Shown piece after piece: positions 2,214 to 13,352 of a stretch of 64,000 bases of DNA (position 1 is its first letter; each line of letters begins with the position of its first letter). Source of the DNA: Pedobacter riviphilus (lineage in GTDB: Bacteria; Bacteroidota; Bacteroidia; Sphingobacteriales; Sphingobacteriaceae). Made by a program: the position numbers and the translations under genes. The notes below the pieces were generated by a model, which made no database searches, had not been told where the DNA came from, and saw only the letters and a program-made list of their open reading frames with translations. Location: NCBI RefSeq assembly GCF_014692875.1, contig NZ_CP061171.1:3224001-3288000 (forward strand). The letters run 5' to 3'.

Positions 2214-3170
2214 TTAATTACCAATTGCGCTTATCATCGTTGCTATAAGCCGTTTCAACTTCGTATGATGTATTAAATAATTAAAAGAAATAATACCCAA
2301 AAATGCGCAGATTACTCCAGCCAATACATCAAGCGTATAATGATGGCTGGTATAAACAGCCGAAAACCAGATTCCGAGCATAACGGTAAAAAAGAAAATA
2401 TTAATTTTCCCCAAGCGGTTTTTTAGGCCATAATAAACAACAATAACGGGATACGATGAGTGTAAGGATGGCATGGCAGCAAATACATTAGAACCTTTGC
2501 TGTATATCCCATGAAAAAGTGTAATACCAAAAAAATGGTCGAAACGGGCCAATCCTGCAGTATTGCCGGCTGTTTTGGCTATAAATTCGAAGCCGTGTTC
2601 CTGCACATACCATGGTGGTGCTGCCGGAAAAGCATAATAAACTACAAAGCCCAATAAATTTACCCAAACAAAAGTGAGCGAAAACTGAACAAACTGTTCT
2701 TTATTCTTAAAGAAAAGATAAGTAGCAAATGCCAAAGGAACAGGCACCCACATTAAATAGAAAAAACCTGTCAATACATCTAAAAATGCATTACTGTTTA
2801 TCTTCCAGTACTCGTTAGGGGTAAGTATTAGCCCATGAGAATGAACACCAAACAACTTTTTTTCAAGTGAATACAAATCTTCAATATGCACTTGATTAAA
2901 AAGATAGTTTGGAAAGGCTTTCATGTAATCAAACAATATCCAGTATACAATAAAGATTGAAAAGCCGAGAATAAAGCGTCTTGTTCCCTTCGAGATAAAG
3001 AACAAAGCGTTAAAAATAAAAATCAGCACCAACTGATCGGTTTTAAAGCCGACCAGCAGCGCTGATAACAATAGATATCCAACAGATATAGCAACTGTTA
3101 GATAAATATTCCGGATATTATAAAAACTGTTTTTAAGCAATACTTCTTGCTGCATGTTATTTTTTATCAA
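2214..3170 (-). CDS. Aur1-like PAP2 protein, probable inositol phosphoceramide synthase
   Basis: A 318-residue polytopic inner-membrane protein of the PAP2 superfamily. The sequence shows YYAFPAAPPWY (about 178-188), a pattern characteristic of Aur1 / inositol phosphotransferases, then MPSLHSSYP with His237 and HYTLD (His277 to Asp281) as catalytic PAP2 motifs 2 and 3. Known Aur1-type enzymes move phosphoinositol from phosphatidylinositol to ceramide and release diacylglycerol. This is the last gene of a minus-strand operon that also encodes inositol-phosphate synthase, a CDP-alcohol phosphotransferase and ceramide-forming enzymes, so phosphoinositol transfer to ceramide is the best reading. 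Its start overlaps the hydroxylase stop region by 14 bases (stop at 3157). A generic lipid phosphatase is the alternative. Confidence 0.8.
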   Translation of the reverse strand: MIKNNMQQEVLLKNSFYNIRNIYLTVAISVGYLLLSALLVGFKTDQLVLIFIFNALFFISKGTRRFILGFSIFIVYWILFDYMKAFPNYLFNQVHIEDLYSLEKKLFGVHSHGLILTPNEYWKINSNAFLDVLTGFFYLMWVPVPLAFATYLFFKNKEQFVQFSLTFVWVNLLGFVVYYAFPAAPPWYVQEHGFEFIAKTAGNTAGLARFDHFFGITLFHGIYSKGSNVFAAMPSLHSSYPVIVVYYGLKNRLGKINIFFFTVMLGIWFSAVYTSHHYTLDVLAGVICAFLGIISFNYLIHHTKLKRLIATMISAIGN

Positions 3171-3777
3171 AATTAGACCTAAAAATATGGTCCCAAAAAG
3201 TCCAGCTTACACCATAACCTTTGGTCGAATCGGAATAATGATGAAGCATATGGTGTTGCTTTAGCTGTTTCCAGAAACCGCTTTTAAAATTAGCATGGTG
3301 AAGGGCGTAATGCACCATATCGTAAAACAGATAACCAATCATAAAGCCTGAGAAAAATGGATAAACCATTGTATCGGGTAACAACCAATCGAAAAGAAAG
3401 TAAAAACCCAAAGCCATAGGGATACTGGCTGAAGGCGGCATCACCAATCTTTTGGCATCATTGGGATAATCGTGGTGTACCCCATGAAAAATGAAATGGA
3501 TTTTCTTTCCCCACTCGGCTTCTGGTTCGAAATGAAAAACATAGCGATGCAAGATGTATTCGGTGATGGTCCAGATGCCAAGGCCGAACAAAAACCATCC
3601 CGCAAAATTTAAAACAGGCATTTCGATTTCCCAAAGCGCTTTCCAAAAAAGAAAAGCAATAACCGGAACATACACGATTAATGGCACATAAAATCGAACT
3701 TTTGATAAACTTTCCAAAAAGTCATTCTTAAACATCCTGATGGATGCGGTTGAATTTGAAACAAAATTCTTTTTCAT
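3157..3777 (-). CDS. Fatty acid hydroxylase (sterol desaturase superfamily), probable ceramide 2-hydroxylase
   Basis: A 206-residue membrane di-iron oxygenase. All histidine clusters of the family are visible: HRYVFH (77-82), HGVHH (98-102), HYALHH (156-161) and HHMLHH (175-180). Length and spacing resemble the catalytic part of yeast Scs7 and mammalian FA2H, which hydroxylate the N-acyl chain of ceramide at C2. The neighbours (serine palmitoyltransferase, ceramide-type enzymes, Aur1-like enzyme) support ceramide as substrate. The frame is open to 3858, but the added residues are encoded by repeat-like DNA (ERSRRP), so I place the start at the Met codon at 3775-3777. The 233-base gap before it holds a palindromic repeat. 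Hydroxylation position is inferred. Confidence 0.82.
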   Translation of the reverse strand: MKKNFVSNSTASIRMFKNDFLESLSKVRFYVPLIVYVPVIAFLFWKALWEIEMPVLNFAGWFLFGLGIWTITEYILHRYVFHFEPEAEWGKKIHFIFHGVHHDYPNDAKRLVMPPSASIPMALGFYFLFDWLLPDTMVYPFFSGFMIGYLFYDMVHYALHHANFKSGFWKQLKQHHMLHHYSDSTKGYGVSWTFWDHIFRSNFDKK

Positions 3778-3885
3778 TTGGTCATATTTTTTAACTGGTC
3801 TTCGACTCCGCTCCGGACTGACAAATTGAGATAGATTTCCCGACTGCGCTCCGCTCAAAAATGAAGGATTCCAGTAGAAACAGTC

Positions 3886-11023: not shown

Positions 11024-12141
11024 ATCGTTTTCTCTAAAATCCTATATTTACGATATAACTTCCCACCAATATCTTCAATAGGTTTATTGATCAGATCGTT
11101 ATGGTCTAAAGTCCAGCTGGCCTCTGCATATTTCATATTTTTAGCCTTGAAATGTTTGATAATACGGCCATAAAGACAGGCTTCAATACCCATTTTACGG
11201 TAACCATCTACTACACCAAGCAATAAAATCCGGATACCGTCGATTTTCTTTTTGTTCAATAAAAGCTTGATCAGACCTGTTGGAAACAATCTTCCGCGCT
11301 TAATTTTGATCAAAATCTGGTTGATATCGGGTATAGCCAACGCAAAGCCTACAATCTTGCCATGCTGCTCGGCCAGGATACAAAATTCAGGGTCGAGAAT
11401 CAATTTGAGGTCGTTTGCCGTATAGTCAAATTCTTTATCCGTCATTGGCACAAAACCAAGGTTTTTATCCCATGCTTTATTGTACACTTCCCTCACTGCA
11501 TTACATTCTTCCTTGAATTTTTTCATGTTGATTTTACGCAGCACGATATCATTGCGGAGTAACCGTTCTTCTATCCTATCTAGCAGTTTAACCGACCTTT
11601 CGCTATAATTACCAGCGGTGTAGCGATAGGCCCTTAAATCGACATTTTTCTGAAAACCAGTTTGTTCCAAAAGCGACAGATAATATGGTGCATTATAAGG
11701 CATCATGGCTACCGGCGGCCCGTCGAATCCTTCAATGAGCAAGCCGCATACCTCATTGGTAGAGAAGTTTACCGGACCTAAAATTTTTGTAAGTCCTCTA
11801 TCCATTAACCAGTCTTGTGCTGCATTTAAAAGCTGTTGTGCAACTTTCACGTCATTAACGCAATCAAAAAAGCCAAAGAAACCATCATTCCCGCCATAAA
11901 CCTTATTGTGGTTCGTATTGTTAATTGCAGCAATTCGTCCAACTATTTTACCTTCATCATAAAGCAGAAAAAGCTGGATTTCAGAATGTTCGTAAAAAGG
12001 ATGTTTACCTGGGGTGAGCAGATCGCGCTGTGCAATAAAAAGTTCGGGAACGTAATTTACATCTCCCGCGTATAATGCATGCGGAAAATCTACAAATGCT
12101 GCTAATGCTTTTTTATCAGAAACCTTTACCAGCGTGCTCAT
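11020..12141 (-). CDS. GNAT-fold acyltransferase, probable bacterial ceramide synthase (bCerS-like)
   Basis: A 373-residue protein with no signal peptide. The N-terminal half begins [17 protein letters not shown] and includes [27 protein letters not shown], a GNAT-like beta strand pair; a second GNAT-like part follows at about 250-350 ([22 protein letters not shown] ... [19 protein letters not shown]). Length and layout agree with the two-domain N-acyltransferase described as bCerS in Caulobacter, which acylates 3-ketosphinganine. The gene is translationally overlapped with serine palmitoyltransferase upstream (ATGA) and the CerR-like reductase downstream (ATGA), a compact three-gene ceramide module. 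Alternative: a general GNAT acetyltransferase, which is how automatic pipelines would name it. Confidence 0.7.
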
Positions 12142-13352
12142 GATTGGCTTCCTACTAATTCTACGTTAACGGCCTTAAAAGCGGCGCTTAGTTTAGCGAT
12201 GGCCGATTCGATCTGATCGAAAGTATGCGTGGCCATTAAAGAAAACCTGATCAAAGACGAATCAGAAGGCACTGCTGGCGAAACTACCGGATTTACAAAT
12301 ACCCCATTTTGTTGAAGGATATTCGTAATCATAAAGGTTTTGATGTTGTCGCGAATGTAAACGGGAATAATCGGGCTATTGCTATGCCCAATATCGAAAC
12401 CTGCATCGAGCAAAAGTTTCTTCGCGTATTCTGTATTGGCCCAAAGTTTATCAATCCGTTCGGGCTCCGATTCGATAATATCTAATGCAGCAATCACACT
12501 TGCCACAGCAGATGGTGGCATACTTGCGCTAAACATCAGTGAGCGGGCACGGTGCTTGATATATTCGATGGTTTCCGTACTCCCCGCAATAAAACCGCCT
12601 AGTGAGGCCAGCGATTTGCTGAAAGTACCCATAATGAGGTCCACATCCTCGGTAAGATTGAAGTGTGATGCCGTTCCCGATCCATTAAACCCAATTACGC
12701 CAAGGCTATGCGCATCATCCATCATGATATTGGCGCCAAATTCATTGGCAATCTCTACCATTTCAGGAAGATTAACCAAATCGCCTTCCATGCTGAAAAT
12801 ACCATCAGAAACAATCAGTTTTGCTGCATCTTCCGGTAACCTGCTTAGTTTCCGGCGCAGATCCTGCATATCGTTATGCGCATATTTAATCGTGCGCGAA
12901 AAGGCCAAACGGCTTCCATCAATAATTGAGGCATGATCGTACTCATCCAGCAACAGATAATCGTTACGATCTAATAAACAAGATATTACGCCTAAGTTAA
13001 CCTGAAAACCAGTGCTAAAAAGCACAGCAGCTTCTTTACCCACATATTCGGCCAAACGATTTTCCAATTCCTGGTGAATATCGAGCGAACCGTTCAAAAA
13101 TCGCGATCCTGCACAGCCGGTTCCGTATTTTTCGATGGCTGCTTTTGCGGCTTCTTTTATTTTAGGATGATTGGTTAATCCTAAATAGGAATTTGAACCA
13201 AACATGAGTACATTTTTTCCGTTTATAACCACCTCGGTATCCTGGCCTGATTCTATCGATCTGAAATAAGGATATAATCCCTTTTCTTTTATCACCGCCG
13301 CATCCTTAAAAGAGGCAATTCTATCTTGTAATTTTTTACGCATGCTGTACAC
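12138..13352 (-). CDS. spt: Serine palmitoyltransferase (alpha-oxoamine synthase)
   Basis: A 404-residue PLP-dependent enzyme that condenses serine with an acyl-CoA (or acyl-ACP) to 3-ketosphinganine, the first step of sphingolipid synthesis. Visible are FGSNSYLGL (51-59), [12 protein letters not shown], the ring-stacking His140 (DEYDHAS), the cofactor Asp in MMDDAHSLG (211-218) and the Schiff-base Lys246 in [12 protein letters not shown] and AONS relatives share this fold, but the overlap with ceramide-type genes and the inositol-lipid set favours SPT. It is the first gene of the lipid operon; the start at 13352 sits at the end of a 531-base regulatory gap shared with a divergent AraC gene. 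Confidence 0.88.

Follow-up and report, generated by a model that had tools for sequence, protein, structure and literature searches.

The window analyzed here, a 64,000-nucleotide stretch of the single-contig genome of Pedobacter riviphilus (G000; 5.83 Mb, 97.7% completeness), contains on its minus strand a run of ten genes (13352 to 2214) that is very probably a single biosynthetic operon for inositol phosphoceramide (IPC), as judged from the protein families encoded and their conservation. A preliminary description of this DNA had proposed that ceramide and inositol branches are joined here for the synthesis of a hydroxylated IPC, which is supported at the gene level by family membership, gene order, and conservation. 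The open reading frame (ORF) list and profile searches give the order serine palmitoyltransferase (SPT), GNAT, SDR, myo-inositol-3-phosphate synthase (MIPS), PgpA, GtrA, DUF5686, phosphatidylinositol-phosphate synthase (PIPS), hydroxylase, and AUR1-like enzyme. Of the eight enzyme families named at the outset, seven are borne out by Pfam and SPT by the NF047600 model and a Protein Data Bank (PDB) match, whereas the two genes then left unnamed encode, according to Pfam, a GtrA protein and a CarboxypepD_reg/DUF5686 protein. The features are as follows.

13353..13883, minus strand: upstream region, expected place of the operon promoter from its position upstream of SPT
12138..13352, minus strand: SPT, serine palmitoyltransferase, first gene (NF047600, PDB 8guh)
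11020..12141, minus strand: GNAT, candidate bacterial ceramide synthase (N-acyltransferase) (YghO homology, SPT adjacency, predicted fold)
10034..11023, minus strand: extended SDR, candidate CerR-like 3-keto-ceramide (or 3-ketosphinganine) reductase (PF01370, motifs, E. coli homologue)
8690..10015, minus strand: MIPS, myo-inositol-3-phosphate synthase (PF07994/PF01658, PDB 7nwr)
8235..8690, minus strand: PgpA-family protein, candidate phosphatidylinositol-phosphate phosphatase of BT_1525 type (PF04608, 137 bits; occurrence)
7852..8232, minus strand: GtrA-family membrane protein of BT_1524 type (PF04138, 65.6 bits)
6032..7855, minus strand: CarboxypepD_reg + DUF5686, upstream piece, frame broken (PF13715, PF18939)
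5311..6090, minus strand: DUF5686, downstream piece (C-terminal part of PF18939)
4011..5321, minus strand: PIPS, phosphatidylinositol-phosphate synthase with C-terminal DUF4833 (NF052561, motif, PF16117)
3778..4010, minus strand: probably non-coding stretch inside the operon (length differs among relatives)
3157..3858, minus strand (likely ATG near 3777): candidate ceramide fatty-acid 2-hydroxylase of Scs7/FA2H type (PF04116, SCS7)
2214..3170, minus strand: Aur1-like IPC synthase of BT_1522 type (PDB AUR1, NF052609)

When the split DUF5686 gene is taken as one, the spacings are −4 nt for SPT/GNAT, −4 for GNAT/SDR, 18 for SDR/MIPS, −1 for MIPS/PgpA, 2 for PgpA/GtrA, −4 for GtrA/DUF5686, −11 for DUF5686/PIPS, 152 for PIPS/hydroxylase, and −14 for hydroxylase/AUR1. 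Overlaps or tiny gaps, first described as running throughout, are thus found at eight of the nine junctions (overlap or spacing of 20 nt or less) and fail at PIPS/hydroxylase, where 152 nt precede the listed TTG start and ∼233 nt the likelier ATG near 3777. This stretch (3778-4010) varies in length among close Pedobacter relatives, and no terminator-like site was found on its coding strand. In site scans compared with shuffled sequences, both sigma-70-like sites (26 versus 38.9 expected) and terminator-like sites (5 versus 11.2) were fewer than expected. A promoter of the Bacteroidota pattern TTG...TAnnTTTG was not found on the coding strand upstream of SPT.

The arrangement was compared in 80 named loci retrieved via MIPS, mostly from Pedobacter and Mucilaginibacter, and also from Nubsella, Filimonas, and less precisely named records. 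All ten genes occur in the same order in 41 of these. Among the 67 full-length loci (>20.5 kb), SPT and AUR1 are found together in 66, the hydroxylase in 66, DUF5686 in 66, GNAT in 65, SDR in 55, GtrA in 52, PgpA in 48, and all ten genes in 39. The comparison of gene order that had been suggested earlier therefore finds the order kept and, considering that SPT and AUR1 stand together in 66/67 loci and all ten genes in 39/67, the grouping is beyond chance. In the nearest named locus (L001, Pedobacter sp. AK013), the nine unbroken operon genes are 95-99% identical to those of the window, and the Pedobacter alluvionis locus (L008) contains the same ten genes. On the other hand, the one full-length locus without SPT, L027 (Pedobacter sp. 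ok626), has just a compact MIPS-PgpA-GtrA-PIPS-AUR1 module, as does L122 from another family.

These loci bear on whether the ten genes form one transcription unit or two or three, i.e. a ceramide unit, an inositol unit, and a hydroxylase-AUR1 unit with its own promoter in the long gap. We consider such a division rather unlikely. It would fit the 152-233 nt ahead of the hydroxylase and their variability in relatives, the inositol module found without SPT nearby in L122 and L027, and the ceramide genes found without a head-group cassette in L183, L188, and L196. It sits less well with the eight tight junctions, the gap in which no terminator-like site was found on the coding strand, and AUR1 staying together with SPT across 66/67 full-length loci.

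The first three genes would provide the ceramide. SPT scores 739.9 bits on the CFB-type model NF047600 (cut-off 640), and its best PDB match is the SPT structure 8guh (E 2.8e-183). No other protein encoded in the genome comes near this model: the next SPT-like protein scores 267 bits versus 881, there are four weaker relatives in all, and the nearest paralogue (L112) passes glycine C-acetyltransferase models. An E. coli plasmid record (L207) encodes together an SPT-like protein, an acyl carrier protein, an epimerase-family SDR, a fatty acyl-AMP ligase, and YghO. The window SPT is homologous to the SPT-like protein, GNAT is 37% identical to YghO over its full length (243 bits), and SDR, which carries PF01370 together with GxxGxxG and YxxxK motifs, is 30% identical to the epimerase-family SDR (E 3e-35). 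Such genes are listed in PMC9386255 as the dihydroceramide set for E. coli BL21, with the same roles in Caulobacter. The likeness was measured on the E. coli proteins of L207, and this homology supports, short of proof, CerS and CerR roles for GNAT and SDR, respectively. GNAT has a predicted tandem-GNAT fold (mean pLDDT 90.4), whose search against the PDB returned general tandem-GNAT matches pointing to no substrate. Among the 120 of 4927 database matches listed, those that are named are hypothetical, acetyltransferase-domain, or GNAT proteins. The genome encodes a second GNAT (L178), which shares 29% identity with YghO (140 bits).

To survey the phylum, we used a sample of 198 genomes, searched for MIPS at E 1e-40 and for SPT by NF047600 at E 1e-120; the latter replaced a search with the window protein at E 1e-130, which was too strict (6/198). 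MIPS was found in 34 genomes and SPT in 147, only 6 of which exceed the NF047600 cut-off. GNAT lies within 2.5 kb of SPT in at least 79 of the 147 SPT genomes and does not in 64, whereas for the remaining 4 there is none among the matches listed; one of those 4 (G033) does have a GNAT beside SPT when profiles are used (L169). We then considered 20 SPT loci, 12 picked for an adjacent GNAT and 8 for a GNAT non-adjacent or unlisted, and found SDR within the fetched stretch in 11, often divergent. The GNAT alignment (A1) comprises 11 of the 13 profile-found GNATs from these 20 loci (without L157 and L162), 13 of the 120 listed database matches, and L155, L156, and L178.

The inositol and head-group genes resemble those of Bacteroides thetaiotaomicron. 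MIPS carries PF07994/PF01658, and its best PDB match is 7NWR, which is BT_1526 (E 4.8e-170; next match 1.1e-64). PIPS scores 409 bits on the BT_1523-type model NF052561 (cut-off 350) and displays, from residue 85, the motif DX2DGX2AR...GX3DX3D published in PMC9246714. It also carries a C-terminal DUF4833 (PF16117, 160 bits; 4011-4520), a second domain that the preliminary description did not mention. The PAP2 enzyme has a single match among PDB structures, AUR1 (E 7e-20), with which it aligns over ∼250 residues including catalytic-type histidines, and shows an SLH...HHxxxD motif. Its one NCBIfam match is NF052609, phosphoinositol dihydroceramide synthase (319 bits over residues 5-297 of 305; cut-off 480).

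The same genes could in principle make phosphatidylglycerol-type or ceramide-phosphoglycerol lipids, with a PgsA, a true PgpA, a generic PAP2 phosphatase, and a MIPS serving another use. This is suggested by the Pfam label of the phosphatase, which is the only PF04608 match in the genome, and by the housekeeping phosphatidylglycerol enzymes not having been identified, since none of the three other CDP-alcohol enzymes of the genome matches the pgsA model (limit 1e-10). In addition, BT1525 could not be deleted by Sartorio 2022 (PMC8791184), whereas according to Heaver 2022 (PMC9246714) other glycerophospholipids are unaffected without BT_1525. We nevertheless reject this alternative as extremely improbable. 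The window CDP-alcohol enzyme passes the PIPS model and fails the pgsA model (36 bits, cut-off 109), so the grouping with phosphatidylglycerol enzymes that had been considered at the outset is not what curated profiles, used in place of a tree, indicate. The PAP2 protein can be aligned with AUR1, as described above. Moreover, in a sample of 121 genomes of the same family as the window genome, the search for PgpA gave no match in 96 and a match in precisely the 25 that have AUR1, which is an ill fit for a housekeeping enzyme. PgpA lies less than 15 kb from SPT in 13 of these 25 genomes, at least 175 kb away on the same contig in 7, and on another contig in 5. This occurrence, identical to that of AUR1 even without linkage, is the strongest evidence that the PgpA-type protein serves the inositol lipid, and argues for it being a phosphatidylinositol-phosphate phosphatase.

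In one genome of the sample (G277, C171:35073-35490), a PgpA match containing a stop codon lies beside MIPS and a full PgpA is on another contig, as if relocated.

The IPC pathway encoded by the operon would run as follows. SPT would condense serine and acyl-CoA to 3-ketosphinganine, which GNAT would N-acylate and SDR reduce, in either order, to yield dihydroceramide; because the genes are of CerS/CerR type, acylation first is favored. MIPS would convert glucose-6-phosphate to inositol-3-phosphate, which PIPS would join to CDP-diacylglycerol to give phosphatidylinositol phosphate (PIP). The PgpA-type protein would then remove a phosphate to give phosphatidylinositol (PI). The Scs7-type enzyme would 2-hydroxylate the N-acyl chain, and the Aur1-like enzyme would transfer phosphoinositol from PI to ceramide. 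GtrA, DUF5686, and DUF4833 would be accessories, probably in membrane or periplasmic lipid handling. In B. thetaiotaomicron, roles were assigned to BT_1526, BT_1523, BT_1525, and BT_1522 from knockouts (PMC9246714, PMC8791184), which showed that the PIPS product is PIP and needs dephosphorylation by the PgpA-type protein before the Aur1 step (PMC9246714).

Genome-wide occurrence was assessed in the family sample, where MIPS is present in 30 genomes, SPT in 49, PgpA in 25, and AUR1 in 25. SPT is present in all 30 MIPS genomes and lies within 15 kb of MIPS in 27 (Fisher p 8e-16 with shared ancestry ignored, which inflates any such co-occurrence probability). AUR1 is less than 15 kb from SPT in 23 of its 25 genomes and on another contig in 2.

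Several observations weigh against a functional IPC operon of this kind. DUF5686 is frame-broken in this assembly, and a promoter or terminator could lie in the gap ahead of the hydroxylase. The likeness of GNAT and SDR to the E. coli proteins is just 37 and 30%, and there is the second GNAT (L178) in the genome. The Aur1-like protein, like all 25 family matches, is below the NF052609 cut-off (319 versus 480). Among the 67 full-length loci, 12 have no recognized SDR and 19 no PgpA within the stretch. The operon is not universal either: in the 14 genomes of the same genus in the sample, the window genome included, MIPS is found in 5 and SPT in 7. Finally, G242 keeps PgpA-PIPS-AUR1, yet no MIPS was found in it at E 1e-40, and its SPT has no adjoining GNAT.

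At the G242 locus (L182, 6275-14847), MIPS and GNAT are both missing from the gene order, which reads SPT-SDR-PgpA-GtrA-DUF5686-PIPS-hydroxylase-AUR1.

All 49 SPT genomes in the family sample were then sorted by type of head-group module, after fetching and scoring the SPT surroundings of the 24 that lack cassette A (defined as AUR1 + PgpA in the genome, 25/49). GNAT adjoins SPT in all 24. In 3 of the 49 (L179, L180, and L181), the ceramide operon contains a cassette B: SPT-GNAT-SDR-MIPS-DUF5686 is followed by the cassette and then the hydroxylase, i.e. cassette B occupies the slot of cassette A. Its order, from the Pfam matches of the prototype L155, is NTP transferase, a 289-aa protein, a CDP-alcohol enzyme, an LPG-synthase-like protein, HAD, and PfkB. 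In 17 of the 49 (L156, L184, L187, L190, L191, L193-L195, and L197-L205), a cassette C, consisting of another CDP-alcohol enzyme and GtrA, follows SPT-GNAT, with SDR in 12 and the hydroxylase in the remaining 5. Four loci (L183, L188, L189, and L196) have ceramide genes with no cassette recognized nearby. By Pfam, none of the window operon ORFs is an NTP transferase, the cassette B CDP-alcohol enzyme, or HAD, and no ORF in the 80 named loci has a cassette B gene as best match. Since the same front genes precede different modules in one slot, we interpret this as a ceramide operon with exchangeable head-group cassettes, of which the window copy, by its gene content, is the Bacteroides type.

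The six MIPS genomes without cassette A all hold cassette B, which is part of the operon in three of them and lies elsewhere in the other three (L185, L186, and L192); these unlinked copies show no PfkB. L155 (114-5523) has cassette B in the ceramide operon and no MIPS in the genome at E 1e-40; its PfkB protein is nearest TM0415, which we take to be a myo-inositol kinase. The 289-aa protein, also found near MIPS in L131 and L152, has no Pfam match and looks like an ATP-grasp enzyme. Its PDB matches are all insignificant, among them inositol-tetrakisphosphate 1-kinase (E 0.65). The window genome itself holds a pair similar to cassette C elsewhere (L119).

Four trees were built from 44 chosen loci and the window for MIPS, DUF5686, SPT, and the hydroxylase, the four alignments having 36, 29, 25, and 24 rows. 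In the MIPS tree, cassette B genomes form one clade (99/99) and Sphingobacteriaceae cassette A loci another (96/91), both inside one group with Filimonas and two family-f2 genomes (100/98). In the DUF5686 tree, cassette B and C genes group with Pedobacter cassette A genes (98/95), leaving Mucilaginibacter cassette A genes outside under midpoint rooting. In the SPT tree, the loci with cassette B or C join L155 and L189 in one clade (100/98) apart from the cassette A groups, and the hydroxylase tree is weakly resolved. With rooting unsure and rows chosen, the trees fit replacement of cassette A in one lineage. Taken together, we propose, with slightly more doubt than belief, a fixed SPT-GNAT front end, usually with SDR, followed by cassettes that differ in product. 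Cassette A would make IPC via PIP and Aur1, and cassette B the same lipid via CDP-inositol, in which case the kinase could bring scavenged inositol into the pathway when there is no MIPS (L155). A different head group would be added by cassette C, which may be a candidate for a Bacteroidota synthase of ceramide phosphoethanolamine or a related lipid.

These loci also inform the role of the hydroxylase, which belongs to PF04116, has histidine clusters, and finds SCS7 as its sole significant PDB match (E 1.7e-32). PF04116 holds diverse enzymes, and action on a lipid other than the ceramide acyl chain would agree with the absence of the hydroxylase from the compact module (L027, L122) as well as from the 12 cassette C loci that have SPT-GNAT-SDR. 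We regard this as improbable in view of the SCS7 match and of the hydroxylase being present in 66/67 full-length loci, beside cassette B (L179-L181), and in five cassette C loci. A Roseomonas sterol-desaturase-family protein encoded beside a GNAT is weakly like it (26% over 144 columns).

The DUF5686 gene of the window is divided between two ORFs (7855-6032 and 6090-5311) that overlap and are read in different frames, as opposed to a single ORF in 76/76 relatives in which both halves were found. Just upstream of SPT, a divergent gene that is AraC-like from a reading of its sequence (13884-14779) is likewise split into two overlapping ORFs. These breaks could mark a decaying, non-functional locus, a possibility that we reject as very improbable: the other nine operon genes are open and nearly identical to those of L001, and base-calling indels in a one-contig assembly of this completeness could also account for two breaks within ∼9 kb. 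Their proximity suggests indel errors of assembly, and real recent loss is possible. DUF5686 is present as well in cassette B operons and in some cassette C operons, and its being common to different cassette operons is why it may have a role in placing sphingolipids in the outer membrane. Of the 80 named loci, 37 have DUF4833 fused to PIPS, 22 have it as a separate neighboring ORF, and in 18 it was not found; in the remaining 3, PIPS itself was not found. Many separate DUF4833 ORFs have a signal-peptide-like beginning. The predicted structure of the domain is mostly beta, and a fold search of the PDB returned no match at E 0.001 or better. The DUF4833 alignment (A2) comprises the window domain and the 22 separate ORFs, the other 36 fused domains being left out. 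In the window as a whole, a tRNA search found none, and a repeat search gave imperfect inverted pairs as well as matches in two copies with 68-80% identity.

The proposed IPC operon combines features of several known systems. As in the fungal IPC pathway, it has AUR1-like and SCS7-like enzymes, which match the solved AUR1 and SCS7 proteins, presumably those of yeast. Unlike that pathway, it has a bacterial SPT type, candidate CerS and CerR types, a predicted PIP intermediate, and all genes clustered. The BT_1522-1526 operon of B. thetaiotaomicron is similar in the homology and order of MIPS, PgpA-type, GtrA, PIPS, and Aur1-type genes. Unlike it, the window has SPT-GNAT-SDR in front, DUF5686 between GtrA and PIPS, DUF4833 fused to PIPS, and an Scs7-type hydroxylase before AUR1. 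The B. thetaiotaomicron SPT (BT_0870) lies elsewhere (PMC9246714), which agrees with the earlier remark that Bacteroides keeps the two branches at separate loci. SPT, GNAT (YghO), and SDR are homologous to those of the rhodobacterial ceramide cluster (aasR, cerR/epi, acpR, spt, and cerS/aca; PMC9386255, PMC11324152), from which the ten window genes differ in having no acyl carrier protein or acyl-ACP synthetase.

A putative alternative inositol lipid cluster in Bacteroides vulgatus/Prevotella, whose function is unconfirmed according to its authors (PMC9246714), comprises an NTP transferase, another CDP-alcohol enzyme, and HAD, none of which is in the window operon. Like the window's inositol genes, it is beside MIPS, and in L179-L181 a counterpart of like domain content occupies the corresponding slot of the ceramide operon. 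By domains and order, cassette B looks like this cluster as described in that paper. Finding such a module in that slot suggests that the alternative cluster (Heaver 2022) makes inositol sphingolipids.

As for producing organisms, PMC9246714 cites Sphingobacterium spiritivorum as having ceramide phosphoryl-myo-inositol, and P. alluvionis, which has the ten genes, is treated as a sphingolipid producer whose polymyxin-B-induced vesiculation was lowered by myriocin (PMC12724326). The main text of PMC9246714 mentions neither Pedobacter nor Mucilaginibacter, and in PMC8791184 Pedobacter appears solely in a reference. Searches of open-licence full texts turned up no account of the joined operon or of cassettes being swapped. 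Each half was already known; what appears to be new is that they are joined in a single conserved operon with exchangeable cassettes.

PMC11334938 states that in Bacteroidota the genes for Spt, bCerS, and CerR do not lie near one another, and PMC11324152 that bacterial cerS is always in a different operon. If GNAT is the ceramide synthase, the window operon sits badly with both statements, as does the SPT-GNAT adjacency across the phylum (at least 79/147) with the former. The PgpA-type protein is tied to the inositol lipid by occurrence, not by position. A single locus would thus cover the sphingoid base, N-acylation, inositol, hydroxylation, and head-group transfer, offering a possible test bed in an environmental bacterial lineage for an inositol sphingolipid class that is best known from fungi and plants.

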